NCBI GenBank assembly: GCA_025618425.1
Contig: CM046844.1
Coordinates: 1,435,500 to 1,499,499 of the forward strand
Source: Heliocidaris tuberculata
Lineage: Eukaryota; Echinodermata; Echinoidea; Camarodonta; Echinometridae
DNA length: 64,000 bases
Direction of reading: 5' to 3'
Shown here: positions 3,808-44,466 of the stretch, one piece after another
Layout: every line of letters starts with the position of its first letter
How positions within the stretch are numbered: position 1 is the stretch's first letter
Program-made: the position numbers and the translations under genes
The notes under the pieces: model-generated
Seen by the model: only the letters and a program-made list of their open reading frames with translations
The model's database searches: none
Told to the model about the DNA's origin: nothing

Positions 3808-4989
3808 CTATCGTCGTCGGCACAGTACTTTGTAAATTGTTTTCTTGAAATCGTTGCGTGTGAAAGCGTAAACAAAAATATTGACGGTGCAGTTGCTCGC
3901 TGCCATAGAAGCTACAACTCTGAAACTGACGCCATTCAGCCGCTTACCCGATGCTGAGGCATATGTCAAAGCAATAGTAAAAGGCAGCCATGCTAATAGA
4001 TAACAACCGGTGATGATTAGAGGTGTACGTAGTGTGCGTAGATTTTGCCGCAAACCATTCCGATCGATTTTCAAACTACGGTCATTACCGCGTATTTTAT
4101 TGGCACCGTCGTTATGATGTGCTTGAACAAAATTCTGAACATTCGGTGGTGGTGGTGGTGGTGGTTGGTCTATCGGACCACCTTGAATTAATCTTATTTC
4201 AAGTTCGGGCTTGTCAGAGGTAGAACAAAGGCTGACAGTTGAGCAAACAGTTTGAACATCATCGTTGCGTGATTTAAATCGAGCCACTACGTTTTGCTGT
4301 GCAGAAATCTGCCGAGAATGACGCCGTGTTATGCGTAGAATGTCAGCGTACATGAGCAATAGAATAACTGCAACCATCCATAAAAAAGAAAAACACGAAA
4401 TTGTATAAGGTAGAAAAGAAGGATCAGAAAAATCTACCTGGCATTGTCCTATTTCTTCTTGATACGCGATTATGTTGAATGATATTTCTGAAATAGCAAC
4501 ACCCATTACCACAAAGCCCACTACGGATAATGCGACTGAAACGACAGAAACAACGGCCTTATTTCGAGTAGCAAAACTGTCATACAAGAAAGGTCGTGTC
4601 ACCTGGATGTAACGATCAACGTTCAACAAGAAAACAAAGTTTGCCCCTACTGGTGGAGCACAAGTTCCTATAAATCCTGTCACTTTGCAGAAAACAGTAC
4701 CGGAAGTGCTAGAGATCCATTCGTTATACCATACAAAGATTGGAGCACTCAGTAACATACTAGCAGTTATGAGATCCGCAACAGCGAGGGCGCTGTAAAA
4801 GACTCTGGTCGCTTCGCCCAAGGTTCCTTCCGGTATTCGAGGGATGACGCTGAGGGTAAGGATGTTGCCAAAGATGCCGATGACAGCGACCATTGTCACC
4901 ACGACGGAACCGACTACCTCGTTAATGAATTGTCCTATATAGGGACCAGGAACAGTATAATTGCCTGGGGTTGTCATGAATGTGTCCAT
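3808..4989 (-). CDS. Single-exon rhodopsin-class GPCR (paralog A)
   Basis: A 393-residue seven-transmembrane receptor of GPCR class A, probably at the plasma membrane and coupling an extracellular ligand to G proteins; the ligand is unknown. The N-terminus carries an N-glycosylation sequon (Asn10). TM1 has GN at 41-42, TM2 LAVAD with Asp72, and TM3 ends in DRY at 125-127. Cys101 and Cys183 fit the TM3-ECL2 disulfide. TM6 has CYLLAWLP (Cys329 to Pro336). TM7 has NIFVY (370-374) in place of NPxxY. Helix 8 ends FKKTIYKVLCRRR with a possible palmitoylated Cys390. The third intracellular loop has seven or more prolines in a row near 276-282. An upstream in-frame ATG exists at 5013, but the start at 4989 aligns with paralog C, and a splice-acceptor-like TTTTTAGTTGCAG precedes it, suggesting a 5'-UTR intron. 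It probably belongs to the sea urchin lineage-expanded sensory GPCRs (inference). Confidence 0.93.
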   Translation of the reverse strand: MDTFMTTPGNYTVPGPYIGQFINEVVGSVVVTMVAVIGIFGNILTLSVIPRIPEGTLGEATRVFYSALAVADLITASMLLSAPIFVWYNEWISSTSGTVFCKVTGFIGTCAPPVGANFVFLLNVDRYIQVTRPFLYDSFATRNKAVVSVVSVALSVVGFVVMGVAISEISFNIIAYQEEIGQCQVDFSDPSFLPYTISCFSFLWMVAVILLLMYADILRITRRHSRQISAQQNVVARFKSRNDDVQTVCSTVSLCSTSDKPELEIRLIQGGPIDQPPPPPPPNVQNFVQAHHNDGANKIRGNDRSLKIDRNGLRQNLRTLRTPLIITGCYLLAWLPFTIALTYASASGKRLNGVSFRVVASMAASNCTVNIFVYAFTRNDFKKTIYKVLCRRR

Positions 4990-5360
4990 CTCACCAATAT
5001 CTTGTTCCTGCAACTAAAAACAGTTTGAATAGTTTTGTTGTTTTTTTTTAAATAGAGGAAAATAAACGTATAAAGGGTTCCTACTAAGCACTTTGATTGC
5101 TTTTAAGTTTCATTTTCAAATCAGTATGGTAAATTCTGGAACCAAAATAAGTCTTGGCCAGAAAGGTGTACGTCTTCTCAGATATCGATTAGAGTACGGC
5201 AGATTTTGAAAAGCAAATGGTCCTTCACTTTTTTTCAAGCACCGAACTAAATTCCTTCAGGTTATTACTTCATTGTTGTGTGTTCAACTTGTTAGGTCAC
5301 TTTGGTTCTCCTTTTTGTAATTAATGAATGGCCAGCGGTGACACGGGGGTGGGACTTTCC

Positions 5361-10783: not shown

Positions 10784-11032
10784 CCTTTTAAATTCACTTT
10801 TTGTACGATGTACACTCCCACGTGGTGAGAGGTCCTACGTCAGCAAAGACGAGTCACGTGCAACGGGTAGAACGTATATCACTTCACCCAATCTGAAATC
10901 TTATGACGTTTCCTTTTCCAAAACTATTTATTTTTAAGTGCTAGGATGATCTACGGAGAAGCTCAAGTCAAGATTCTGAAAGTATGCCATTGCATTTTCC
11001 GTAGTCTGTTACAGGATAGAACTTCTTGAGAC

Positions 11033-12205
11033 ATGGATGCGTGGTCGACCCCTCCGAGCAATAGCACACCAGCCGGTGACAATTTAGTGCTGATCATTAC
11101 GAATACGGTCGGGATCGTTATGGTGACAATAATTGCCATCATCGGCATCGTTGGAAACATCCTCAACCTCATCGTCATCCCTCGAATACCGGAAGGAACC
11201 CTGGGCGAAGCGACCAGAGTCTTTTACAGTGCCCTCGCTGTGGCTGACCTCATGACCGCTGCAGTATTACTTAGCGGTCCATTCTTTTTCACCTTTAATG
11301 GATGGATCTCTAGCACTTCGGGCAATGTTTTCTGCAAAGTGACAGGATTTCTAGGAACTTGTGCTCCACCAGTGGGGGCCATCTTTATTTTCTTGTTGAA
11401 CGTTGATCGTTACCTCCAGGTGACACGACCTTTCTTATACGACAGTCTTGCTACTCGAAAGAAAGCTGTCGTCTCTGTTGTAATAGCTGCAATATTGATT
11501 GTGGGTGTTGTGTTGTTGTGCATTGCTCTTTCCAAAAGATCGTTTTCCGTGATCATGTTTATAGAAGAACTAGGAGTATGTCAGGTTAATTTTTCAGATC
11601 CCTCCTTCCTACCTTACACAGTTACGATGTTTTCTTTTTTATGGATGATTGCAATTATCCTGTTGGTGATGTACGCTGACATTCTACGCATAACAAGGCG
11701 TCATTCTCGGCAGATTTCTGCACAACAGAATGTAGCAGCTCGCTTTGTGCCACACAGAAATGATGCTCAAACTGTCACTTCCACTGTCAGCCTTGTCACC
11801 CATGATCCTATCTATAACATGACGGAAGTTGAAATTCATTCCACAAACCAACTACCACCACCACCACCTAACGTTCAGAATTCTGTACAAGCACACCTTA
11901 ATAACGTTTCAAGGAATACAGGCGGTAACGGCCAGGGGTTGAAAATTGACCGAAAAGGTTTACGGCAGATTTTACGCACACTGCGTACCCCTTTAATAGT
12001 CACCGGTTGCTTTGTAATGTCATGGCTGCCGTTTACTGTATCACTGACGTATGCTTCAGCATCGGGTGAGCGGCTAAACGGCGTTATTTTTAAAGTGGTT
12101 GCTTCTCTGGCAGCTGGCAACTGTACCGTCAATATTCTTGTGTACCTTTTCACTAGGAAGGATTACAAGAAAACATTTCGCAAAGTACTTTGTCGACGAC
12201 AGTAA
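11033..12205 (+). CDS. Single-exon rhodopsin-class GPCR (paralog B)
   Basis: A 390-residue class A receptor clearly homologous to paralogs A and C but more divergent. It shares the block around RIPEGTLGEATRVFYSALAV (51-70), Asp72 in TM2, DRY at 125-127, Cys101, the FSDPSFLPYT segment before TM5, the HSRQISAQQNV motif opening the third intracellular loop, SWLPFT in TM6 and NILVY in TM7 instead of NPxxY. The N-terminus has a glycosylation sequon at Asn10. The third loop has a run of five or more prolines encoded by CCA repeats near 11855-11870. An acceptor-like CTGTTACAG stands about 19 bp before the ATG, as in A and C. It sits alone in the spacer between the duplication arms. Ligand unknown; a chemosensory role is an inference from the family. 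Confidence 0.93.
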   Translation: MDAWSTPPSNSTPAGDNLVLIITNTVGIVMVTIIAIIGIVGNILNLIVIPRIPEGTLGEATRVFYSALAVADLMTAAVLLSGPFFFTFNGWISSTSGNVFCKVTGFLGTCAPPVGAIFIFLLNVDRYLQVTRPFLYDSLATRKKAVVSVVIAAILIVGVVLLCIALSKRSFSVIMFIEELGVCQVNFSDPSFLPYTVTMFSFLWMIAIILLVMYADILRITRRHSRQISAQQNVAARFVPHRNDAQTVTSTVSLVTHDPIYNMTEVEIHSTNQLPPPPPNVQNSVQAHLNNVSRNTGGNGQGLKIDRKGLRQILRTLRTPLIVTGCFVMSWLPFTVSLTYASASGERLNGVIFKVVASLAAGNCTVNILVYLFTRKDYKKTFRKVLCRRQ

Positions 12206-16362: not shown

Positions 16363-17955
16363 TTGCTTGAATACATGTATATTGCAATGGTATCATAGTT
16401 GATAATGCTTGAATACATATACATGTATATTGTAATGGTATCATAATTGATAATGCTTGAATACATGTATATTGCAATGGTATCATAGTTGATAATGCTT
16501 GAATACATGTATATTGTAATGGTATCATAGTTGATAGTGCTTGAATACATGTATATTGCAATGGTATCATAGTTGATAGTGCTTGAATACATGTATATTG
16601 TAATGGTATCATAGTTGATAATGCTTGAATACATGTATATTGCAATGGTATCATAGTTGATAATGCTTGAATACATGTATATTGTAATGGTATCATAGTT
16701 GATAATGCTTGAATACATGTATATTGTAATGGTATCATAGTTGATAATGCTTGAATACATGTATATTGCAATGGTATCATAGTTGATAGTGCTTGAATAC
16801 ATGTATATTGTAATGGTATCATAGTTGATAATGCTTGAATACATGTATATTGCAATGGTATCATAGTTGATAATGCTTGAATACATGTATATTGCAATGG
16901 TACCATAGTTGATAATGCTTGAATACATGTATATTGTAATGGTATCATAGTTGATAGTGCTTGAATACATGTATATTGTAATGGTATCATAGTTGATAAT
17001 GCTTGAATACATGTATATTGTAATGGTATCATAGTTGATAGTGCTTGAATACATGTATATTGTAATGGTATCATATAGTTGATAATGCTTGAATACATGT
17101 ATATTGCAATGGTATCATAGTTGATAATGCTTGAATACATGTATATTGCACTGAATGGTATCATAGTTGATAGTGTTTGAATACATGTATATTGTAATGG
17201 TATCATAGTTGATAATGCTTGAATACATGTATATTGCAATGGTATCATAGTTGATAGTGCTTGAATACACGTATATTGTAATGGTACCATAGTTGATAAT
17301 GCTTGAATACATGTATATTGCAATGGTATCATAGTTGATAATGCTTGAATACATGTATATTGCAATGGTATCATAGTTGATAATGCTTGAATACATGTAT
17401 ATTGTAATGGTACCATAGTTGATAATGCTTGAATACATGTATATTGTAATGGTATCATAGTTGATAGTGCTTGAATACATGTATATTGCAATGGTATCAT
17501 AGTTGATAATGCTTAAATACATGTATATTGTAATGGTATCATAGTTGATAATGCTTGAATACATGTATATTGCAATGGTATCATAGTTGATAATGCTTGA
17601 ATACATGTATATTGCAATGGTATCATAGTTGATAATGCTTGAATACATGTATATTGCAATGGTACCATAGTTGATAATGCTTGAATACATGTATATTGTA
17701 ATGGTATCATAGTTGATAGTGCTTGAATACATGTATATTGCAATGGTATCATAGTTGATAATGCTTGAATACATGTATATTGTAATGGTATCATAGTTGA
17801 TAATGCTTGAATACATGTATATTGCAATGGTATCATAGTTGATAATGCTTGAATACATGTATATTGCAATGGTATCATAGTTGATAATGCTTGAATACAT
17901 ATACATGTATATTGTAATGGTATCATAGTTGATAATGCTTGAATACATGTATATG
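16363..17955 (-). repeat. 42-bp minisatellite, about 38 copies
   Basis: The unit is ATGCTTGAATACATGTATAT followed by TGCAATGGTATCATAGTTGATA. Because 42 is divisible by three, the minus strand stays open in more than one frame for over 1 kb, giving 14-residue periodic artefact peptides. Units differ at a few diagnostic sites: C/T in TTG(C/T)AATGG, T/C in GGTA(T/C)CAT, and A/G in TTGATA(A/G)TGC. A 6-bp expansion (ATATAC) occurs only in the second unit and the second-last unit. One unit (near 17150) has a CTGA insertion and one (near 17074) a TA insertion. Confidence 0.97.
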
Positions 17956-20759: not shown

Positions 20760-22080
20760 TGGGGATTAAAGATATATAGATATTATTGATGAAGGAGAAT
20801 AGCTAATTTTTAAAACATTTTTATTTAATTCTGTCGTGCCATAACAAAATTGAATCTTTGAAAGTGTTACTTTGGTGGTGTATACATTTCTTTTGCAGAG
20901 AAGTACGTTTTAAATCAAGTCTGCACAAAATTCAATTAAAAAAGAGATATCGATATGTTGAAGTCGAATATTTTGAGCACTTGATGAAAAGGTCGTAGGT
21001 TTCAGCCCCTGCAGGGTACTCCGTACCCTGGGGAGAAACTTGTAGGATGATAAAAGTCACACGTTGACGATGAGATTGAATTGAAGCAAATCCAATGTAT
21101 TTTGGTCATGATATTGGTGTCTCATGCGCTGCCCAATTTTGCAGAGTTATGAACATAAATTTCACTTCACATCTGATCTGGCTGAAGCTCTACTAGAGCT
21201 ATTACACTCTAAATGCCCGAATGAATCTGATGACTGGGGTGACAATATAAACGTTAGCTATAAGTAGGGGCGTAGCCAACGTAGGCTAGGGGGCACATGC
21301 CTTTCGATTACTTTCTAGAGTCACACAGGTGCCCATATGAAAATCTGTAAAAAACATTTGTAACAAAAGATTGATGACTGCATGCTTAATCAAACTGAAA
21401 TGTTACATTCATAAGCTCTGAAGTGCATTAAAATGTTAAGTTTCAATCTACTAGGCTATTTAATTTTTTTTTCGCCCTCTTTACCCGTACATTTTAATGC
21501 TCCAGCCCTAAAATAAACTGCTGTGATCCTCCTCCCTGCAGAAAATTGGGTAAACTGAGGACAAGGGAAATAAGAGGGAATTTTTTTTTTCAATCGACAA
21601 TCGGAAAACTAGTAATCTCCTCATTCCCCGAAACAAGAAAAAGACCATGTACAGGACCTATGGGAGGTTGTGCTGGGGTGAGAATGAGATGGAGTGACGG
21701 TAATGCCCCCCCCCCCCCCCCCACCACTGGTGGCCATTTATTGATTATAAAAAGGAAAACAAGGGTGGCCTAGCAGGTTGAACACATAATAACATTGTTG
21801 GAAGCAGTTACGTAAAGAAGTTTACTTCGGTTTGTGGTAGAAGTTGACTTATGGTTGCTTTAAAGATAAACTGAATGAGGACCATTTGCTTGTCAAATTA
21901 TGCCGTACTGTAATTGATATCTGAGAAGACCTACACCATTATAGCCAATAATTATTTTGATTTTCTACTTTTCCATACAGATTTGCAAATGCAATTTACC
22001 ATCAATCACTGTAAAGTGCTCAGGAGGAACCCTTTATACGTCTACTTTCCCCCTATTAAAACTATTCAAACTGTGTTTAG
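20760..22080. other. 5' flank of GPCR C, no gene recognised
   Basis: Flank within the right duplication arm, with a poly(C) run near 21706-21722 and a MITE-like fragment GGGGCGTAGCCAACGTAGG near 21265-21285. A pyrimidine-rich stretch ending AGTTTAGTTGCAG near 22074-22086 resembles a splice acceptor shared with the GPCR A upstream region. Confidence 0.5.
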
Positions 22081-22099
22081 TTGCAGTTTAGTTGGTGAT

Positions 22100-23260
22100 A
22101 TGGATACATTCATGACAACCCCAGGCAATCATACTGTTCCTGGTCGTGATATAGGACAATTAATTAACAATCTAGTCAGTTCAGTCATAGTGACAATCAT
22201 TGCCGTCATCGGCATCGTTGGAAACATCATCAACCTCAGCGTCATCCCTCGAATACCGGAAGGAAACCTGGGCGAAGCGACCAGAGTCTTTTACAGCGCC
22301 CTCGCTGTTGCTGACCTCATAACTGCTTGTATGTTACTTACTGGTCCAATCTTTAAGTATAACGAATGGACCTCTAGAACTTCCGGTACTGTTTTCTGCA
22401 GAGTGACCGGATTTCTAGGAACTTGTGCTCCACCAGTAGGGGCCAGCTTTATTTTTTTGTTGAACGTTGATCGTTACATCCAGGTGACACGACCTTTCGT
22501 ATATGGCAATCTTGTTACCCGAAAGAAAGCCGTCGTTTCTGTTGTTTCAGTCACATTATCCATAGTGGGCTTTGTGGTAATGTGTGTTGCTATTTCAGAA
22601 ACATCATTCGACATAATCGCGTTTCAAGAAGAAATAGGACTATGCCAGGTAGATTTTTCCGATCCTTCTTTTCTACCGTATACACTTTCGTGTTTTTCTT
22701 TTTTATGGATTTTCGCAATTATTCTGTTGGTCATGTATGCTGACATTCTACGCATAACACAACGTCATTCTCGGCAGATTTCTGCACAACAGAATGTAGC
22801 GGCTCGTTTTGTGTCACACAACGATGATGTTCAAACTGCTTGCCACAAGCCCAAACTTGAAATGAGAGTAATCCAAAGTGGTCTGATGGATCAACCACTA
22901 TCACCACCACGAAGTAATGTTCAGAATTCTGTTCAACGTGTTCAAGCACATCGAAATGACGGTGCCGATGAAATACGCGGTAACGACCGCAAGTTGAAAA
23001 TCGACTGGAATGGTTTGCGGCAAAATCTACGAAAACTATGTACACCTCTAATCGTCACGGGTTGTTATCTATTAGCATGGCTACCTTTTACTATTGCTTT
23101 GACATATGCCTCATCATCGGGTAAGCGGCTGAATGGTGTCGGTTTCAGAGTTGTAGCTTCTATGGCAGCGAGCAACTGCGTCGTCAATATTTTTGTTTAC
23201 GCTTTCACACACAGTGATTTCAAGAAAACATTTTACAAAGTACTGTGCCGACGACGATAG
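22100..23260 (+). CDS. Single-exon rhodopsin-class GPCR (paralog C)
   Basis: A 386-residue class A receptor, the closest relative of paralog A: the first 15 residues differ at one position, and FSDPSFLPYT, the HSRQISAQQNVAARF region and the TM6-TM7 block are shared. It has a sequon at Asn10, Asp72, DRY in TM3, WLPFT in TM6, NIFVY instead of NPxxY in TM7, and a C-terminus FKKTFYKVLCRRR. It is shorter than A through a one-residue gap before the NEW motif of the first extracellular loop and a shorter third intracellular loop, where the proline run is broken to PLSPPR. The reading frame is open back to an ATG at 21914, but the ATG at 22100 aligns with A and lies after an acceptor-like TTAGTTGCAG. 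Probably a sensory receptor; ligand unknown. Confidence 0.93.
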   Translation: MDTFMTTPGNHTVPGRDIGQLINNLVSSVIVTIIAVIGIVGNIINLSVIPRIPEGNLGEATRVFYSALAVADLITACMLLTGPIFKYNEWTSRTSGTVFCRVTGFLGTCAPPVGASFIFLLNVDRYIQVTRPFVYGNLVTRKKAVVSVVSVTLSIVGFVVMCVAISETSFDIIAFQEEIGLCQVDFSDPSFLPYTLSCFSFLWIFAIILLVMYADILRITQRHSRQISAQQNVAARFVSHNDDVQTACHKPKLEMRVIQSGLMDQPLSPPRSNVQNSVQRVQAHRNDGADEIRGNDRKLKIDWNGLRQNLRKLCTPLIVTGCYLLAWLPFTIALTYASSSGKRLNGVGFRVVASMAASNCVVNIFVYAFTHSDFKKTFYKVLCRRR

Positions 23261-27340: not shown

Positions 27341-27817
27341 AGAATTTGGTGAAAACTTGAATAATTCGAAAGGAACCTTTAGAAATTTGGGATGCGAAGA
27401 GAAATTCATTAATACATGTATAATTTTCCTCTTTTCTCAAAAACCTAAGTACCCTGAGAGGTAACTTAGAAAAAAATTAAACAATAAAGAGCAAAAAAAA
27501 AAGTGCTATGGAATGGAAAATGCCATTATATAACTAACTCCATTATCCTCTTTCCATTTACTTTGTTTCATATTTAAAAAATACCTTTGTATTTATATTA
27601 TGACTTTCATTATCATTTGCTATATGCTGTATTACATTCCTTGTATGTATATTATCTACATTTTTTTCTGATCGATGATATTATTGTAACTTATCGTTTG
27701 CTATATAATTATAAAACTTTATTTATCATGATTACGATCTAAATTACTCACATGACTGCAAGTACATTCTGAAAGGACATAATTAGGACCTATATCTATT
27801 GTTATATACCGGTTCTA

Positions 27818-28335
27818 GGACACCTACCCCCTGGACAACCACCCCCGGTTAACCACCCCTAGGATAACCACCCTCGAGGACAACTACCCCCTAGGACAAC
27901 TACCCCCTAGGACAACTACCCCCTAGGGCAACCACCCTCTAGGATGATTACCCCCCCCCCCCCGACTAACTACCCCCTAGGGCAACCACCCTCTAGGACA
28001 AGTACCCCCATACAGCTACCCCCTAGGGCAACCACCCTCTAGGACAACCACCCTCTAGGACAACTACCCCCCGGACAACTACCCCCAGACAACTACCCCC
28101 AGACAACTACCCCCTAGGACAACCACACTCTAGGACAACTACCCCCCGGACAACTATCCCCAGACAACTACCCTCTAGGACAACTAGCCCCCGGACAACT
28201 ACCCCCGGACAACTACTACCCCCAGGCAACTACCGTCTAGGGCAACCACCCTCTAGGACAACCACCCCCTAGGACAACTAACTACCCCCGGACAACTACC
28301 CCCAGGACAACCACCCTCTAGGAAAAGTACCCCAA
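27818..28335 (+). repeat. Left arm of TU-like element: 12-15-bp tandem repeats
   Basis: About 38 units of the form GGACAACTACCCCCTA, with recurrent variants GGGCAACCACCCTCTA and GGACAACCACC. A poly(C) expansion at 27950-27963 interrupts one unit. Confidence 0.95.
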
Positions 28336-28339
28336 ATTG

Positions 28340-30105
28340 AACTTAACATCGCATTGAACAAGATTGAGCTCGTTCGCTATGCTCGCTTGCCAAAATGGCA
28401 TTTAGCACAATTTCTGTCCCGAGCTGCAACAATAAAACCCAGATAATATACCAAATTTTATTAAAAGGGAAGTGTTTGTTTTCGCTCATGCTTGCTCGCT
28501 TAATTGTTCCTACTCCAACCTCCAACAATAAAACCTAGTTTATCACATTAAAAAAACAAAAACAAAAACAAACAAAAAAATAGTTTATGTATACAAATTT
28601 TCCATAACTTTTTTTTTTTTTTTTGCTCGCTCGCTACCTCGCTGGCCGAAATGGAAGTACCACTAACAAGCACACTGAATACGATGGTGCCCGCCACGAG
28701 TTACTAGTACTCTTAATTGTAAAATATTGCTTTAGATTTCTCCAATGCATAAAGCAGATATTCCCATGTGCAATATCAAGTCTCTATTGGACGTTTTGCA
28801 TGGTCAGCAATTAAGGGGGGACGGGACGGAAAACAAGATGGATGAGAAAGCAACCTAGAATTGTAAATACAATACAATACAATACAATACAACCTAGAAC
28901 GCAATGTTCGGAAATTTATGCCTTTTCACCATCAAGAAATTTATGAATAATAGCATAAATGACTTTTGAAACATTTATTCCATCAAAGACGCTATAATGA
29001 CGGAGAGAATAATCAGATCTTCACACTTTTGAGACACTTAAGATTATTATGAAACAAAACAATTTTGACGCTCATTTCATTGACATTTGGATCAGGGGGC
29101 ACTGTGCCCCCTATTTTTGGTAGAAAAAAAGAAATTGGCAAAGTTATGGCAAATTTCGGCAAAAATTTCAGTAAATTTGGGCAAAATTCGACAAAATCCT
29201 GTATTAAAATACATGACACTAAGAAAAAATTGGGAAAGTTAATTGAAAAAAAAAAAAAAAATCATGTTCAGACACGACATAATTTCCCGGAATTAATGTT
29301 TTTTTGTATGTTTCACTTTCTGCGTATTATTTCAGTAACTATTATTATGAATAGTTACTGATTAATAGTCTCTTCAGTTCCTATCCAAGTTTATATTTTC
29401 GTAGTTCTGTATGTAAAAATGCGTAACAAATTATAATCATTTGATACAGATATGGTTTCATATTGCCAAATAGACATAACAATGATCTGCTTATCAATGC
29501 GCCAGATTTGGCCATTTCAAAGACTATATAAATGTATTATATTTGTTATTTTATGTATTGCACTGCACTTCTCCCGCCTTGAACTGGGGTTTACCCAAGT
29601 GTTTAAAAATGAATATCAATTTTTAAAAAATGAATTCTTTCATGTGAAATTATTCGCATCTGTCGTTATACGCACTAATAGAGCGCCTCCGCGCGGCTTC
29701 TGAGTTGTTGCCAAGGTCAAGCTAAACCGAGAAGTCTGCTCAAAGTACCTAGCCGGACTGGCAAGATTTTGCCTTTTGGGCGAGGAGGTGTTAACTTTCT
29801 GTTACAGGCGTATGACAGGTGTACCAAAGCTTGCGCGCGCTGCGAATTTTCTTCTCAATTTAGGCCTTGTATATTGTAAGGATCCCACCCCCCCCCCCCT
29901 TTATTTTCCCTCTCATCTTATATAATATATAAGGCTTTGTCTGCTACAGAAAAACAAAGTAATATATAATTAAGTCATAAAAAGGCTTATTTTTTAACAA
30001 CGCAACTGAGATGGCGTAAATATTCATATTTTGAATGACAGCACCGTAAAAATCAAAAACAACAACAACAACACCTTTCTCCCTTTCTCCTTGCTGTTCT
30101 GCATC
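28340..30105. other. Interior of the TU-like element, left part
   Basis: AT-rich, with two CTCGCT-rich patches (28370-28395 and 28622-28650) and a poly(C) run near 29887-29900. A pentanucleotide stretch (AATAC)n at 28863-28890 is bounded by the direct repeat AACCTAGAA (28851 and 28891). No transposase motif recognised. Confidence 0.45.
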
Positions 30106-30107
30106 AC

Positions 30108-30335
30108 CAGGGGAGGATTTCACTAACGCTTGCGATGCATCGTTAACCCTTCGCAAGGGCTTGAACCCATCGTAAGAGCCTGAACCCATCGCCCGTGGAC
30201 GATGGGTTGCTTTTCGATTTCACAAAGCTCCTGCGAAGGGTTTACCCGTCGCAAACCCATCGCAACGCAGCGGATGCTCAAAGGGTGATCGCAGACTCAT
30301 CGTAGGGCTGCGATGGGTTCAAAAACTAACTTCCT
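30108..30335. repeat. Left subterminal cluster of CCCATCG/CGATGGG motifs
   Basis: AACCCATCG and its complement CGATGGGTT occur several times in about 220 bp, with GATTTCAC at the start and again near 30215. A shorter set is at the right end (35230-35330). Clustered subterminal motifs are often transposase-binding sites (inference). Confidence 0.55.
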
Positions 30336-30339
30336 GTCC

Positions 30340-33300
30340 CAACGGAGCGTGTGGCGCGAAATCCTTTGCAAGTTAAATTCGCTTTATTTATTTGTTTTTT
30401 ATTGTGATGGTCTGTTTTAAACTTATCTCAATCATTTGTGGCTCGCATTCTGGTTAATATAGAACGTTCTCTCTCTCTCTCTCTCTCTTTTTTTTGTTGA
30501 CTTTCTGCTAATTTTCTTTAAAATTTTAGATGAAATGTTTGTAATTATTTTTGATTTTTTTTTTTTTTTTTTTTTTTGGGGGGGTAATTATTTATTATTT
30601 CTTCTTTTTTAATGGAAGGCCTATTATTCGTTAATTATCATTGCATTCATCTTTTTTATTTTTGTGGTGGGGGAACAAATAAATTTAAACCATTTTGGGG
30701 ATGTTCCCCCCCCCCCCGCCCTCAATAAAAAGGCATAAGTGGTAACTTGTTCAAAAATGTTTGCACACTGTGGAACTCTTTCTTCTGTCCCTCTCTCCAT
30801 TTCACCGATTTTGTGTTCTAATTAACTCATGAATAAATTACTTGCTTTCTCCATTTCGCTTACCCGATGATTCTTTTCTTTTTTTTCTTTTCTCTCTTCT
30901 CATTACCTCGACCTTTCTTCCCTCTCTCTCTTATTTTCTAGATATGTAAGTCTACAACCCCTGTTCTTGAATCATCTATTTCTTTCACTCTTACTACTTC
31001 TCTCTCTCTCTCTCTATCTTATTGCTTTTAAGTATTATATTATGTATAAATCCCTTTATTTCTCAGCACATTAATGTTACTCTAAGAATTTCAACTTGTT
31101 TTACACATACTACAAATCTCACGAGTATAAACATATATGAAATACAAATCCAACTGGCACTGTCTTGTCAATCGAAGTCTACAGCTCCACATGGATTTTT
31201 ATTAGTTAACAATCAAAAAAGTAACACACAAAGTGACTGGAAAAAAAAATCATGAGTTTACATAATAGTAGCTTGGGCGGAAATTGCAATGAAAGTGTTG
31301 TTAATCCGAACTCAATCTCATCCAGTCTAAAGTAACAAGAATTTGCAATGAATTTAGACATAGGTGTACGGGCACATTTTCGCGAGGGGGGGGGGGGGGG
31401 GGGGTGATGATTCTTGCCAGTATATCAACTTACTATTTTCTAAATTTTGTGATCAAGCAGAGTGAAAATTCTGCCCGAATATCGGCACTTTCAAAACCCT
31501 CAGGGAAGCTGCAGCCAACACCCCCCCCCCCCCCCCGCCTGGTACGCTTTTGAATTTGGATTGAATCAATATAATTTTTAGTGAATTTATAGGCAAATTT
31601 CAATTGGTTTTATTTAACTTCAAAACAGTGCATGTAGGATATTTAGATGAAGATACGATTCCAAAAGGGAACTGAGCCATAATGAATATACATGTATAAT
31701 TCAAAATAAATTTTCATTATGCATTTTGAGAATTCTACAACTTAAAAGGTTGTCAGCAGAATACGGTTGATGTATAGAGATGTAGCATTACTCGTGTCAT
31801 ATAACACTTTACTATTGGCTAAGTGGGTATCAAATATACCAGACAAGTGGGTTAATCATGCACAAATTAGCATTAAACATCATCATTATACAAATGACAG
31901 TAGTTATATTTAAAAAAAAAAACCCTCCTTAATTACTATTTATCACACCCAAATTCTAAGGAAACAATGATATCGTAGAATAGCATTACAAAGAGCAGGC
32001 CTGTTTGAATGCAATTTAATGAATAAGGAAACATTATTTATGGCAATAAATAAAACTTCACGAACAATAGAATGTCACCTTTATCAAATGTACAACAAGC
32101 AGAAGAAACAGGAAAGAGAAGTAGCAGAAATTCGAGATGGCATTCAGTAAGTTCCTCGTGTTCTTTGGGTATTAAAAAAAAATCAAGTTTGGTATTTCAA
32201 TATTAATATCTACAATACAAACAATGATTGTAATCAGAGGTATCACCAGCAGCAATATAATAGTTGGGGGAGTGGTGGGCTAAGGGGCAAGGAAAATCAT
32301 GAGGGGAGGGGGGACACATCGTGGCAAAGCAAGAATTATTTCACTAATAAAATTTGACTCCTGTCCCATCTTCTCATGCCTGGTGCAAGCACTGTATGCC
32401 ATTATTCATATCTCTCCAAATTAGTCCTAACTGTACATGTACCCAACTAAATGAACATGTTGGATGTGTAATCGCCCCTGAAATTAAATTGTTATGCTCC
32501 TCTCCTTGTATATTTTCTATCACATAATAACTTTTGTATTTTTGTATTATTTTGGATTTAATCTTAATTTTCCGGTAAACCGTGCGCTTAGAAACATCCG
32601 TATTAAGCCCCTAATAAATGTATTGTATTATTATTATTATTATATGATTGCATCAATGACTGTTTTAGTAATGTTCTGCACAAAAGACAATCATTTTTTT
32701 TTTGAAACACAATATAATCATAATTATAAGTTTTACCACTAGCCCGCATCCAAACCAATTCACAAGTAACAATAGGATCAGAGGCGTCTGTTGATTTCTT
32801 GAAAATCCATGGATCCCTTGTAATGTGATTTAAAAAAAAAAAAAAAAAAAAAACCTCAATTTTCTCATCTTTTTAGTGCCATCATCATCTTGTCAATTGG
32901 TAGGTGATGCATCTCATGCGTTTCTTTCTTTACTGCTTTCTTCATCTTCTTTCCTTCTGTTCCTCCTTCCTTCTTGGAATTCATGCAACTATGATCTAGT
33001 AAGAAGTGAAGAAAAAGACGTATATTATGATTTACCTTAATTTCCAGTCAAAATGAAAAAGAAGGAAGATGAAGCGGTATATCTTCTTTAAAAGTCAGAA
33101 GTTCACATTGAAATTGGTCCATCAATTTATCTTTATTTTCAAAGTAGGAAAGGATGGAAGCCCGCTTATAGGATTTTTAAAAATGTAAAAAACTTAATAG
33201 ACAGGTTATTAGATTGAAACATGAACAACAGTCAATGCAGAGGTATACATTTCAGGGGCATATTTAGCTTGTCTTATGTTTCTAGAACACTGAATAAACA

Positions 33301-35230
33301 AACAAAACACAATAGTAATAGTTGTAACAAAAATGAAGATTTGAAAAGTCGATGTTCCATATGTGACTAAATCTTACCTTCCAATAGGTATCCTCTCTAC
33401 CCTCTCGTTGCGATGTCTGCACATATTTTGTTGAACGTATTCTCCACCTTTTGCAAAAGTCAAGTGATAGAAAGAAAAAAAAAATAGCGGGCAGGGTGAT
33501 TTTGGGTGGGATTTTGTTGTTGATGATGATCATCTTCACCTGTTTGACAAAGCATATTATACATAGTCTAGAAAAGCTTGTGGGGCAGGGGGGGGGGGGG
33601 GGTGATATTCAAATATGATTTCGATATCAAGCAACAACAACAATAGCTTTGATAAAATTCTTGGTGTCAATTTACTGTATCATTTGTGTCACAAGATGTT
33701 CTTAGTTTCAGACTATCTGAAACTTAGGAGTCCATGTAGACATGCCATATGCAAATGACAATGTAAACAATACAAACATAGGCCTACCTGTTTTATTCCA
33801 GCTGTATCAGAATTTCTTCACAATATCTTTCAAGTCCTCCACTCTCTTCAGCATTTTCTCCTAACTCCTGTCACTTCTTCCTCTGAGGCAACATCTTCAT
33901 CTTCTTCCATCCTCACAAGTAAAGATGAGACCTTTGCAAGGTGACACAGAGCTCTCATGCTAGTCTGACTTCTGAAAGTAAAAAAAAAAATATGGAGTAG
34001 ATCTATTAGCTAGTAAATCAATGTGGTGTGAATTCATTTTTATTTTTTTATTCATTTATTAATAAAAAAATTTTTTTTTTGTGTTTTTTTTTGGGGGGGT
34101 AAGATTTTTCTTTCATCGGTCTGAAAAATCAGTTGGACTTAAACAGAATGAACGAACACAATTTGCCCAGTTGGGAGCCAGACTAAATCAAAGTAAGAAA
34201 GGATATAAAGTCTAGGAAAGTACGAGCATACACCAGACAGTAGCCTGTACTTATAGAGAGAAGAAGAATCTAGACCCTGTTCGACCTAAATTTAGATCCA
34301 ACAATGTTATTCTAGTTAGCACTGCTGGTTCTATATTTGTCCATGGTCCCAAAATCTAGATGCAACAGTTCTAACGTTAGATTCTAATCTACATCTAGAA
34401 TAGATCTAACGATAGACCCAACTTAGATTGACTAGGCTTAGGTCTAGATCTACTAGTCTAAAAAAGACCCTATTAGGCTATTTCCAGGTTGTTGTTGGGG
34501 GGGGGGGGGGGTTAGATGGATCTAGGCCTAAAGGAATTTCTTTTTTGCTTGTATTATTTCATACGAGGAGAACACTGTGGTTGAGCTCGTATTTTGTTCT
34601 CGACATTAGTCTATTACTCTATAAATAACTTTTGTTACTTAACTTTGAAGTTTGATCTAACGTTAAAGTTAGTTACATAATTACAGTCTTTCTTAGTTAC
34701 TCCAGAGTCCCATGTTACTTACGGTACTAGACTTGTCTTAGAGTTAGACCAAGTTAGATCTATTTTATGATTAGACTCTCTATGTATTTTATATTTTTAC
34801 AAGTGTTAAAGATTTAAACCATTGATATTCTATAAATAAACTAATTCAATTCAATTCTTCTCCACTTCGATTCCACACAAACACGTACACTGTAACAGTG
34901 CGACATCTAACGTAGATAGCCAGTGGCAGTGCGGTTCTCTACCGCACAGTTTGCATCGCTAGTACCGCTACACCGCGACGAGTAATGACAATAACACTGT
35001 AAACTCCTGCGTAGATATTAAATACTTATCAAAATCTTCAACAGAATGTGTAATTGTAGATTATCTTACCTAACTGATATTGTGACAGTCGTTAACATCC
35101 ATTTTGGTGAAGTTAAGAACAAAAATCACTTAAAAATCACAAATGATCGTACACAAATCCCGCGGGCTAAAATGATGGCTAAAAATGACCCCATCCTCGT
35201 TCAAGAAGTATTTTTCGAATAAAAATGCAT
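30340..35230. other. Interior of nested element, no gene recognised
   Basis: AT-rich, with (CT)n at 30470-30488, poly(G)/poly(C) runs near 30707, 31387, 31520, 33590 and 34497, and a cluster of AGATCTA/TAGATCT-type words at 34260-34760. Short open frames carry no recognised domain. Confidence 0.4.
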
Positions 35231-35351
35231 CGCTGCTGCGATGGGTTTTGTGAAATCCTCTGAAACAACTCCACGCAGCTGCGATGAGAAGGGTGCGAAC
35301 GATGGGTCTTGCGATTAATCGCTCGTGAATGTTAGTGAAATCCTCTGGACC

Positions 35352-36305
35352 CCCTCTACTCCCCGTAGTAAGATTTTATTTAAATTGTAAGGGCTCTCAA
35401 GGCTTCAAGCTTCTGCTTATCTTGGAGCTCTAAGTTCTGTTGGAAATACGTTTCTGTGATCATATTATATAAACTGTATACTATGTACTTGTATTTCTAT
35501 GCAGAACTGAATAAATGAAATGAAATGAAAAATGAAATTTAGAGGAATCAAAAGACATATTTGTTGGTATTGCAATAATCTTGGATAGCTCTAAAGTGCA
35601 AACAGCAGTATGCGCTGTACAAGTGACAGTTATAATTATCATTTGGGGCCATAGATTCTGTCTGAATCTTACTCGCAGACCGTTGTAGATTGTTATTTTA
35701 AGTTCCCCTTTTTAGTAGGAAACGCGGCAAGATATTGGATTCATTATTCGTGAAAATACATAGGCCTACTTATACTCACCCAAACCCTTGGTTATAACCC
35801 CCAAATTTCCAGGAGATCTTAATGTGGGAGAGCAACCCCTTATACATTTCCCAGTTGGTATTTAATATTGAATATATCATAGAACTTCACAGAACGTTAC
35901 CTTTGAAAAAAAAAAAAAAAAAAAACAATCACAGAGTTTTTCGCCCAAATTTGATGGAAAAATGCAACAGTACAATGCACCATCAAACACCGAGTTTAAA
36001 CACCCAACTTTTAAAACAAAAATGTAATACCAGGGGAAATCTCCCCCCCCCCCCCGGTGCTCCAGGGTATAGACACATTCAACTGCAATCATATAATTTT
36101 TCTTGTGGTGTGGTGAATTTTAACATTATAAATTATAATTCACACCAAAATCCTTAAAACTATAACCAGATTCCCAAAAAGTTCTTACCGTGGGAGGTAG
36201 ATACCCCCTCCTCCGGATACTCATTATATCCTTACTGATTGTTGGTCACCTCCCCCCCCCCCCCCCCCCCCACGTCCTCCCTTGGCCGAAAACAGTTTAA
36301 ATACC
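35352..36305. other. Interior of the TU-like element, right part
   Basis: It contains an AATGAAATGAAATG tail-like stretch near 35510-35538 that resembles a retroelement 3' end, and poly(C) runs near 36043-36056 and 36252-36271. No gene recognised. Confidence 0.4.
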
Positions 36306-36309
36306 GTCG

Positions 36310-36943
36310 AGTATCTGGGAGTTGTAACTGTTTTGGGGGATAGTTGACCTACATGTCATGGGTGAGAGTATGTTGGTTGTTGTCCGAATGATAATCACCC
36401 TAAGTCGTTATTGTCCGGGGGTAGTTATTTGGGTGGTAGTTACCTTAGGTGGTAGTTGTCAAGGAGATGTCCTAAAGGGTGGTTGCCCTAGGGGGTAGTT
36501 GTCTGATGGGTAGTTGTCCGGGGGGGGGGGTAGTTGTCTGATGGGTAGTTGTCCGGGGGGGGGGGGGGGTAGTTGATCTAGAGGGTGGTTGTCCTAGGGG
36601 GTAGTTGTCTGGGGGTAGTTGTCCGGGGTAGTTGTCCTAGGGGGTAGTTGTCTGGGGGTAGTTGTCCGGGGGTAGTTGTCCTAGAGGGTGGTTGTCCTAG
36701 GGGGTGGTTGCCCCAGGGGGTAGTTGTAGGGGGTACTTGTCCGGGGGTACTTGTCTTAGATGGTGGTTGCCCTAGGGGGTAGTTAGCTGGGGAGTAATCA
36801 TCCTAGAGGGTAATTGTCCCGGGGGGTTGTCGTCCTAGAGGGTGGTAGCCCTAGGGGTTAGTTGTCCTAGGGGGTAGTTGTCCTGGAGGGTGGTTATCCT
36901 AGGGTGGTTATCCGGGGGATGGTTGTCCAGGGGGGAGGTGTCC
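36310..36943 (-). repeat. Right arm of TU-like element: 12-15-bp tandem repeats
   Basis: Units of TAGGGGGTAGTTGTCC and variants, the reverse complement of the left arm. The outer 300 bp match the left arm unit by unit. The inner part (36310-36500) is more degenerate, and poly(G) expansions occur at 36521-36530 and 36555-36569. Confidence 0.95.
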
Positions 36944-36944
36944 G

Positions 36945-38100
36945 GATACCATCTACTTCATAATATTCCATGTAGATAAAACAAAAAGACTAGATTTATG
37001 TTGTGTTTATACCTTTAAATATACAAAATATACATCCTATCTGTTCGGAATATACTCCTGAATAATTTATCATGGTTCCATTTTTCATAACACAATATTT
37101 TTTGTTACATAATTATTATATATCTAATGTACATGTATTATGTTTATGCCTGCCTCCATTATGACTCCCAATAATTTCGTTGTATTGTTCAAATATCTTT
37201 CTGTAGCTACATTTTTGTGATATATGATGCAGTATACTCTATCGTTTGTTACATTATAACATCATTTTTTTATGATGCTCTACAATATTTATAATTATGC
37301 TTAGGAAACAAAACAATGATATATATCAGTGATGTTTAATAAATAGAGTGCTAGTGCGGGGCAATATAATACATGAAGTACTCGGTTGTTGCCGATCTAT
37401 GACTTACGTTATCAGCATCTTATAAGACGTGATTAAGAGGGAAATGACGTACATACCGAACACCGCGGGTGATATTACATTGTTCTTTCCTCTCGGTCGT
37501 TTTATCAATTAATCTCTGCACGATGGCATGCAAATTATTACTCAAATTATTCTAAAAGGAAATGGTTTAGTGGAGTAAGTCGTGGAAGGTCGTGGAAGTA
37601 TGTTCATGTATATAGAAGCTTTCGATCAGTTTTAAAGCTAAAGCTTGCGGTGCTTTAAAGAGGGTAAAATTGTTGGTGCTACATCGAGTATACAATAAAC
37701 ACTTTAAACACGATAAAAACTTCTTTCGAAAAATAAACTCAAGGGTAATTTCAAAGGCCTATTGTACTGCCCATAGAAATAATGTTCGCTCATTTCTAAA
37801 GGTGATAGACAGGTCTATTGAAATTGCCTTCAGTTGATTTTTCGAAAGTAGTTTTCATGGTTTTTATCGTGTTTTTACTAAATTGTATTTATTTCATACA
37901 GAAGTAAAAGAACGTTTGAGTTGATGTTTCGTAAAACGTTTCTTGCTCCTAATATTTTCAGGGTCATTTTGTCTGCTAAAACCCGGCTCAAACGAGGCCT
38001 CATTTGCTGACGTCATAGACCTCGTCAGTGACTTTTACGGTCTTTTACGCGTAAGGAAAGAGTGATATAGTTTTTAAAATGATCGCAAAATGAATTTTTG
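36945..38100. other. Intergenic, no gene recognised
   Basis: AT-rich flank right of the TU-like element. A short inverted motif pair around AACTCAAGGGTAATTTCAA / TTGAAATTGCCTTCAGTT (37736-37835) suggests a small hairpin. No gene seen. Confidence 0.4.
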
Positions 38101-42527: not shown

Positions 42528-43060
42528 CATTCTTATTTTCAAGTCATACATGTACTTGTTTAGTTCGCAGTTTCTTTGCACCACATCCATTCGTTTCCAC
42601 GTAAAAATCCGAGAAACTTTTTTTTCCCATCCCCAATTTAGATTAATCCCTAAGGTTTGAATCCCCGTCGCCTCATCAAAAAAAAAACCAAACTAATTAC
42701 ATAAAAAAATTAAAACAGCAAAAGCAAATTTTATTCGCTCAGTTTTGAAAGATCTTGGACGACAAAGCATACTTAGAGCAAAACCTTATTCTGAAGCAAG
42801 CCTTTCGGGTTGTAGTTTGAATCTGAGAGAATAATACTTCTTACTTTGTATTAAAGTTGAATTCATATTTCATATTAAGAAAAAACTCTGAGTCTCTGGA
42901 GGCAATCTATACTACTATGTGCGCTATACGTAATTCAATTTTTTAAAGAGCTAATCGTTACTCACAAAGAGGTGTCTTAAGATAAAGATTTACTCAATAC
43001 CCCGAGTTAGAGTAATTGCATGAATTTTTTCGACATTACTTAATCATTGAGAGACAGTTT
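41950..43060. other. 5' flank of GPCR D
   Basis: AT-rich, with TTTG-repeat stretches near 42122-42146 and 42290-42305 and the microsatellite at 42455-42530. A CAGTTTCAG acceptor-like site lies just before the GPCR D start (43054-43063). No other gene. Confidence 0.45.
42455..42530 (+). repeat. (CT)n(CA)n compound microsatellite
   Basis: About ten CT units pass directly into about 25 CA units with occasional CG interruptions. Confidence 0.95.
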
Positions 43061-43071
43061 CAGTGTCCACG

Positions 43072-44466
43072 ATGTTGACTACAAATGCTATCTTGAGCCT
43101 TGTCCTATCGGTAGTCCAATTCATGATTGGCCTACCAAGCAACGCACTTATCATTGGAGTCTATGCGGGAAGGAAACCCCAGAAGACCACGAATCTCCTG
43201 ATCATCTGCCGAGCCGCCATCGACATCATAGCGGCAACGATCACTGCTCCAATGAACATTATCTATGCCTTGACCGACACTGATCCTTTGTGTTCATTCA
43301 CGATCTTTCTGAAAGATGGCATTTCGTACTCGTTGTTTATCATGGCTTTGGCTGTTGCATATGATCGGTTCGTCGTCATCTGCAAACCATACGACGAGCG
43401 GTCATCAAAGAAAAGAGGCGTCATCATGGTCACCTCAAGTATCTCCACTTCACTATTTCTGTCGATGGCGGGGACAATCAATGCACGACAGAGTGTACCC
43501 GGTGGCATCTGCCATGCCACCTCGCATGCGTCATCGGTTGCGGATGGTTGGATGAAAACGGTCGTGTTTGTAGCCTCGGACATCGGGTGCCTGATCTTCT
43601 ACGGGCTCGTATACATCACCTTCCGCAAATATGCTCGAGTTCAAGTCCGCAAAGGGGGTCGACTCAGTACGATCAGGGAGGGTCGAAGAAGACGTCGCTT
43701 GTTTGGAAGGAGAGTGCAAACACAAGAGTCTGTAACGTCAACGTCTTCGAGGTGTATCCATGTCGAGCTTGAGCCAGCACCACCGACAATGACAATGAAC
43801 TTCATCCACTCCGAGATCCACACCGAATCCGAATGTAGTCTAAACGCTGTGAGAGAACCCAAGACCACGAACATACAACACAAAGAGGTGTGGGTGAACC
43901 CTCGCCCTTTGCCCACTCATAAAAGTGGCCCTAGTCAACGAAAGCTCAAGGATCTACAAAATACGCGAGCAGGACCATCGAGAGCTTCAACAAGCAGAGG
44001 GAGAAGGAATCGTTTCTCAGAGTCAAGTGCCATTTCACCGATGACAGCGATAAACAATCCCTGTAAAGAAAGTCGATCGATCTCCGTTTCGGCGATCATC
44101 AGTAATAGTACCGTCAATGTCCATCATAATCGTCCTAACGAAACCTCCTCAAAGACCACATCTGCTGACCTTGAGGCAGTTAATCAACGTCTGGCTCAAG
44201 AGCATCAAACCACTGTCACGATGCTTGCTGTCAACGTCTTTCTTGTTTTCTCATGGATTCCTGCGGTCGTCTTCTACCACATCGACAATGACATCGAGGA
44301 CCAAAATGAACCCAACTTTCTCGTCATACGTTTAACACAGTTGAATCATTTTATGAGCTGTTTCATTTACGTGCTGACCAGTACACAGTTTAGGCGGGAC
44401 GCCCTGAGCATAATCCGTAAATTAGGGCTTTGTGGCAGACATCAAGAAATTCACATAGAAATATAA
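43072..44466 (+). CDS. Single-exon rhodopsin-class GPCR (gene D)
   Basis: A 464-residue class A receptor unrelated in detail to paralogs A-C. TM1 has the GLPSNALIIGVY segment with the conserved Asn; TM2 carries an Asp in RAAIDII; TM3 ends AYDRFVVICKPY, so DRY is DRF (98-100). The third intracellular loop is very long (roughly residues 195-375), basic and Ser/Thr-rich, and gives way to TM6 with VFLVFSWIP, where Ser replaces the usual Cys of CWxP. TM7 reads HFMSCFIYVLTS and lacks the NPxxY Asn and Pro. The frame is open to a GTG at 43063, but 43072 is the first ATG. A splice-acceptor-like TTTCAG precedes it, so an upstream 5'-UTR exon is possible. Ligand and coupling unknown. Confidence 0.9.
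   Translation: MLTTNAILSLVLSVVQFMIGLPSNALIIGVYAGRKPQKTTNLLIICRAAIDIIAATITAPMNIIYALTDTDPLCSFTIFLKDGISYSLFIMALAVAYDRFVVICKPYDERSSKKRGVIMVTSSISTSLFLSMAGTINARQSVPGGICHATSHASSVADGWMKTVVFVASDIGCLIFYGLVYITFRKYARVQVRKGGRLSTIREGRRRRRLFGRRVQTQESVTSTSSRCIHVELEPAPPTMTMNFIHSEIHTESECSLNAVREPKTTNIQHKEVWVNPRPLPTHKSGPSQRKLKDLQNTRAGPSRASTSRGRRNRFSESSAISPMTAINNPCKESRSISVSAIISNSTVNVHHNRPNETSSKTTSADLEAVNQRLAQEHQTTVTMLAVNVFLVFSWIPAVVFYHIDNDIEDQNEPNFLVIRLTQLNHFMSCFIYVLTSTQFRRDALSIIRKLGLCGRHQEIHIEI

Follow-up and report, generated by a model that had tools for sequence, protein, structure and literature searches.

The window analysed here is a stretch of 64,000 bp from the sea urchin Heliocidaris tuberculata (contig CM046844.1, below C13, positions 1435500-1499499 of an 897-Mb genome), and its own numbering is used below unless a contig is named. 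Near its middle lies a 9,140-bp element (27811-36950) with ends made of inverted tandem arrays of a short unit, GGACAACTACCCCCTA. For comparison, 16 further loci were read (L-numbers below), as was PAR, a near-identical copy of the window's own locus that lies inverted 617 kb off on the same contig and matches it at 98-99% identity along most of the 40 kb read. The element and its left flank are made up of the following parts:

27802..27810 (no strand): left 9-bp target duplication TTATATACC, on both sides in PAR
27811..27817 (+ strand): left 7-bp tip, G type (GGTTCTA)
27818..28333 (+ strand): left arm, about 33 tandem units of 14-16 bp
28334..29354 (+ strand): left part of the element body, common to other copies; 28837-28885 is covered by one or two of them only
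29355..30111 (+ strand): left part of insertion A, 757 bp, missing in 14 of 15 spanning loci, with part of it in L014
30112..35346 (no strand): nested element B, 5,235 bp, with the ends GGAGGATTTCACTAAC / AGAGGATTTCACTAAC, not in PAR or L014
35347..35536 (+ strand): right part of insertion A, 190 bp, with GAAAT repeats at its end
35537..36419 (+ strand): right part of the element body
36420..36943 (- strand): right arm, inverted array; degenerate units run on inward for some tens of bases
36944..36950 (- strand): right 7-bp tip, C type, reading GGTATCC inward (CGTATCC in PAR)

The last base of the right tip falls inside a 9-bp deletion, through which the right target duplication of the window copy was lost; PAR has TTATATACC on both sides. 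The 5-bp matches at the outer flanks of the window copy were at first judged, without computation, to be at chance level. One of them, ATACC, is a remnant of the true 9-bp duplication, as seen from PAR. The preliminary description of this DNA gave the extent as 27818..36943, which fits the arrays; the element proper opens 7 bp outside the left array, at 27811.

Tandem Repeats Finder placed two arrays, both with a unit of some 14-16 bp, at 27815-28333 and at 36420-36943, the latter as overlapping rows. The best inverted match linking them (27818-28279 against 36943-36465; 80.6%, 342 bits) was anchored at the outer ends, and apart from the arrays no inverted match between the two ends was found when the window was compared with itself. 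The order of variant units was examined by shuffling the units of the right arm 2000 times and aligning them to the left arm from the outer end inward. The true order had a local score of 504, the shuffled orders 307 ± 23 (maximum 402), and none of the 2000 reached 504. In global mode the true order scored 496 and the reversed order 261. The match began at the outermost unit (27818 and 36943), and the signal weakened from the outer to the inner half; with the outer 15 units removed the score was 252 against 202 ± 17, with 1 of 500 shuffles equal or higher. The arrays were thus confirmed as reverse complements with a matching succession of variant units, as first described, and the separate poly(C)/poly(G) runs and unequal inner lengths of the two arms noted at the same time are also present in the sequence. 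Exact 25- and 27-base patterns of the unit had no matches in viral and prokaryotic collections, and Rfam and tRNA scans returned none.

The structure is dispersed. A genome search with the left arm, in which 40 of 1754 first-look candidates were scored, gave at least 69 matches; a fuzzy search for the tips returned array units. The body between the arms was at least partly matched in all 16 further loci (its left part only in L027 and L028). Two loci are duplicates of others (L019 of L018, L022 of L020) and four (L023, L024, L027, L028) had no convincing right tip within the stretch read, which left 10 distinct complete copies, or 11 with PAR. The window copy, as the twin of PAR, was excluded from the duplication and arm-pairing counts and replaced PAR in the per-copy test of unit order, in which arm agreed with arm in 11 of 11 copies (0/500 shuffles each). 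The inner sequence GGACACC was present, with at least 6 of 7 bases, at the ends of all 11 copies. Tips were located from it, so the seven bases outside it were unselected, and in each of the 11 copies they formed one tip of the CGTATCC type and one of the GGTTCTA type, with the variants CATATCC (L020), CGTATCT and GTTTCTA (both L014), and GGTTCGA (L017).

When the 20 bases outside each tip were compared, the longest string common to a copy's own flanks was 9 bp in 8 of the 11 copies, 8 bp in two (L015, L018), and 5 bp in one (L025), and in 110 cross-copy controls it never exceeded 7 bp. Independent satellites or solo insertions were rejected on the strength of the common body and the duplications around the whole unit. 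Inverted repeats at the termini are long, with arms of about 0.5 kb in the window and arms 86% identical to each other in a sibling element described below. An allele without the whole element was not found; the empty site found was for the nested insertion only. The original proposal of a foldback transposon with tandem-array ends is supported by the unit order and by outer ends that recur together, in many copies with their own target duplications and in the sibling around a different interior with transposase coding blocks.

The interior of the window copy is composite. PAR and L014 are both continuous across 30111/35347, and since both read straight through its borders, 30112-35346 is a later insertion. 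This nested element B has inverted ends of 15 exact bases. A cluster of CCATCGC-type motifs lies inside each end, the two clusters being opposite in orientation, and the empty sites of B in PAR and L014 show a 2-bp overlap (GG). A further 947 bp, insertion A (29355-30111 plus 35347-35536), is missing in 14 of the 15 loci spanning that point (L028 stops short of it), and L014 has part of it. From its GAAAT repeats, insertion A might be guessed to resemble the 3' end of a long or short interspersed nuclear element (LINE or SINE). Without both insertions the element would measure about 2.96 kb (9,140 - 5,235 - 947), comparable to L013 (2,937 bp) and L021 (3,003 bp). The arrays had been described as enclosing a cargo of about 8 kb with no visible transposase. 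It is not a single cargo, as 5,235 bp and 947 bp of it are absent in relatives and most of it is later insertion. A transposase inside this cargo was also considered and rejected, most of the cargo being later insertion and none of the 8 open reading frames (ORFs) scanned, of 35 with at least 55 codons, passing. As a side observation, 17967-62205 is mostly an inverted copy of C13:2051000-2090999 (98-99%, 617 kb apart), which could be either a recent inverted segmental duplication or an unresolved second haplotype.

A transposase was found in the sibling element, on contig C1. The transposase domain of Mutator-like elements (MULEs) had 14 matches in the genome, the top one at C1:2098668-2098943 (PF10551, 60 bits). 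No arms were seen within about 1.5 kb on each side of the 14 loci; 10 kb were read at two of them, with an arm at L044 and none at L043. An array of the family's unit lies within the 10 kb surrounding the top match and ends in GATTCTA-GGAC with ATAATCTTC outside. Because ATAATCTTC stood outside this end, ATAATCTTC followed by a C tip was expected at the other; this was predicted before the far end was read, and ATAATCTTC-CGTATCC-GGACAACTACC followed by a 30-copy array was found. The C1 element spans C1:2091257-2102566 (11,310 bp), with an exact 9-bp duplication, ATAATCTTC, on both sides. Four of its coding blocks match residues 49-464 of P0004 at 65-67%. P0004 is a 464-residue Strongylocentrotus purpuratus protein marked with both MULE and FLYWCH domains, as are most of the 72 matches; the combination of the two domains in one protein is that of P0004, the C1 match being limited to residues 49-464. 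The four best relatives of the C1 transposase are all from echinoderms (S. purpuratus, Diadema, Lytechinus, and the crinoid Antedon). To judge from the sequence, a MULE (DDE) transposase would belong to this family through the C1 element, which has the same ends, and the window copy would be non-autonomous. Related transposase pieces also occur on C17 and elsewhere in the genome: those at C17:15665275-15667782, 15720046-15722985, and 18112396-18115335 match residues 1-183 of the Phantom-type protein in pieces and contain open frames of 105-107 and 422-427 codons.

Tips were also counted genome-wide. With at most one mismatch, there were 1,623 occurrences of the C-tip pattern and 1,408 of the G-tip pattern; the reversed-pattern controls gave 0. 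For pairing, the exact tips on C1 and on C2 to about 12 Mb were taken from the first 100 places of each pattern, giving 100 C tips (24 with ACACC, 76 with ACAAC) and 26 G tips. Among the tips listed, 14 facing pairs lay within 4 kb of each other, all of them C with G; the span is 0.53-0.73 kb in 8 pairs and 2.5-3.4 kb in the other 6. The shorter class (e.g. C1:3654013-3654596 and C1:15482245-15482771) looks like miniature inverted-repeat transposable elements (MITEs). Among the tips listed, 10 of the 24 C tips with ACACC lacked an exact partner within 4 kb, as did 12 of the 26 G tips. One facing C-C pair was seen, 11.1 kb apart, and its second member was already paired with a G tip at 0.6 kb. 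Two C tips in the same direction, 0.66 kb apart, were noted at C1:35174918-35175581.

The window structure is best read, with a probability of roughly 0.93, as one copy of a non-autonomous Mutator/foldback family of cut-and-paste DNA transposons, with a Phantom-class MULE as the probable mover. Each end would consist of a 7-bp tip of one of two types, GGA, and a tandem array of about 0.5 kb with a unit of 14-16 bp, the two ends being inverted relative to each other. A Phantom-class transposase such as that of C1:2091257-2102566 probably recognises these ends and inserts the element, duplicating 9 bp of the target. The arms of the family would descend from one array present at both ends of a source element whose two arms were presumably nearly identical, with later drift in each copy. 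Since then the window copy would have acquired insertion A and nested element B, and the 9-bp deletion would have removed its right target duplication.

The family was compared with published systems. The closest documented match is Tm1, a Mutator/Foldback element of root-knot nematodes, with asymmetric 7-bp motifs inside mostly 9-bp duplications, then GGA and inverted ends built from varying numbers of 13-15-bp tandem repeats; it has non-autonomous and MITE-like classes and an autonomous class with a Phantom-like MULE (PMC3169594). The architecture and the duplication length are the same here, and the unit is 14-16 bp; the phylum is different, and body and repeat unit are distinct in sequence. 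The family is not a member of Tm1 itself, because GGACAACTACCCCCTA and the tips CGTATCC/GGTTCTA differ by eye from the printed Tm1 motifs (motif C and tips). A likeness of the tips, CCTACCC-GGA in Tm1 and CGTATCC-GGA here, is suggestive only. Muta1 of Aedes combines a terminal motif with subterminal tandem repeats of 12 bp, an arrangement that its authors term a type 2 foldback; it has many non-autonomous derivatives and moves in yeast, where it makes 8- or 9-bp duplications (PMC5225508); Muta elements are grouped with Phantom in PMC6446971. Plan and duplication length are again alike, but the ends of Muta1 are 145 bp with a palindromic 10-bp motif, whereas here the arms are about 500 bp and the two 7-bp tips differ. 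For the MULE superfamily, target duplications of 8-11 bp, often 9, are given, and 9 bp is the rule here.

Rehavkus has 9-bp duplications, a minisatellite before its 3' end only, and a PHD finger (PMC6446971). The duplication length and a minisatellite near an end are shared; here arrays stand at both ends, and the transposase has FLYWCH-bearing relatives. Tetris and Galileo of Drosophila have long inverted ends of variable length with internal tandem repeats (PMC4079207 and PMC3573991), and Tetris has 8-10-bp duplications and no known transposase. Their units, unlike those here, are about 210-220 bp, and the transposase of Galileo is of the P type. The preliminary description likened the architecture to that of sea urchin TU elements. 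TU is, like the present family, a sea urchin foldback. Its outer domains are made of tandem repeats of 15 bp, its middles vary, and its duplications would be 8 bp long, 9 bp being the rule here; the comparison covered these features and not sequence. TU is also cited as a sea urchin foldback in PMC4079207. From its sequence, the family appears to be a new one of a known kind, Mutator/foldback. No earlier report of a sea urchin MULE foldback was recognised in the literature searched, which was mostly without subscription papers and does not show absence from print.

Gene conversion between the arms had been offered as a possible reason why arms made of slippage-prone repeats keep the same order. 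Two arms from the same copy did not resemble each other more closely than arms taken from different copies (p 0.60 for the outer 150 bp, 0.38 for 300 bp, 0.35 for 450 bp, and 0.085 for 100 bp), so gene conversion in resident copies is not needed, and the proposal was not upheld for them. At 300 bp the likeness was 394 for left-left, 408 for right-right, and 390 for left-right pairs. In the outer 150 bp it was 192, 229, and 202, respectively, and because the right-right value is the higher one there, the two sides are not quite equivalent. The left arm of the C1 element shared its unit order with arms from four copies: in each of the 8 comparisons made, at most 1 of 500 shuffles scored as high. 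Trees of two body segments were nearly star-like. On the simplest reading, a source with nearly identical arms spread and each arm has drifted alone since. The same data bear on a reading as two minisatellites, or a local inverted duplication, kept alike by conversion. Inverted arms can in principle convert each other, but with no excess of likeness within copies and the structure present at many loci, this is very improbable. Two independent facing insertions of a solitary minisatellite-bearing repeat would inherit the same order from their common source, and both the unit order by itself and the equal likeness of arms between and within copies are compatible with this. Such insertions are nevertheless hardly credible where an arm-body-arm unit recurs inside one 9-bp duplication in 8 of the 11 distinct complete copies and the tips form facing C/G pairs at characteristic distances.

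The mover might also belong to another superfamily, for example P-type as in Galileo, foldback-like ends being reported in different superfamilies. However, the 9-bp duplications suit MULEs, the MULE blocks on C1 are flanked by arms that share the family's unit and tip types, and the succession of 7-bp tip, GGA, and short tandem units follows the plan of Tm1, whose putative autonomous form has a Phantom-like transposase; a non-MULE mover is therefore considered improbable. Several points weigh against the preferred reading. The C1 transposase has no match for residues 1-48 of P0004 and a frame shift between two blocks, and hence an active source was not found. The C1 body does not match the family body, only the arms being common, and the unit order of C1's own two arms was weakly above that of shuffled arms (2/500). 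Another Phantom-like locus, C6:36594176, had no such arms within the 10 kb read. The window copy yielded no transposase, none of the 8 of its 35 cargo ORFs that were domain-scanned being above the family cut-off, and none was seen in the other copies read, whose ORFs were taken without a domain scan. The longest frames in the copies had 113-128 codons, barring low-complexity frames of up to 349 codons in extra sequence of L016. Among the duplications, L025 had no clean one (an 8-base string with one mismatch is in place), and in L018 and L020 the duplication lies 4 bp off the left tip.

Relative to the tips, the body is oriented one way in 9 of the 11 copies and the opposite way in PAR and L014, which form one clade in both body-segment trees (99/97 and 98/97) and have different target duplications. 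A single inversion between the arms with later transposition of the flipped form accounts for this orientation; a swap of the two tips would look the same. A wider reading is put forward tentatively, and as a whole it is somewhat less than evenly probable. In it, the transposase would act only on one C end together with one G end. The array arms would be kept alike in the source, their order being reset there or during transposition and not in resident copies. Recombination between the arms would invert the interior with the pairing kept, one inverted form having become a source (window/PAR and L014). With the tip-GGA-array plan shared by nematodes and sea urchins, asymmetric ends would be an ancient feature of Phantom-type MULEs.

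A high-copy sea urchin foldback family with minisatellite-like arms thereby gains a probable source of movement in Phantom-type MULEs. The family is a clean system for asking how slippage-prone repeat arms stay matched, and the first test favours descent from one source over conversion in place. The pattern of one C and one G tip gives a direct handle on end pairing by MULE transposases. In such genomes, an array of this unit should be examined as a possible transposon end before it is called a satellite.

Elsewhere in the window, long ORFs resembling G protein-coupled receptors (GPCRs) were found at 3808-5013, 11030-12205, 21914-23260, and 43051-44466. Three of the GPCR-like ORFs are related and lie inside inverted or direct repeats of each other. 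A search was made with the fourth, in which an S. purpuratus protein matched the ORF at 43072-44466 with 62% identity along its length. A separate minisatellite occupies 16364-17954, with about 37 copies of a 42-bp unit (94% matches).

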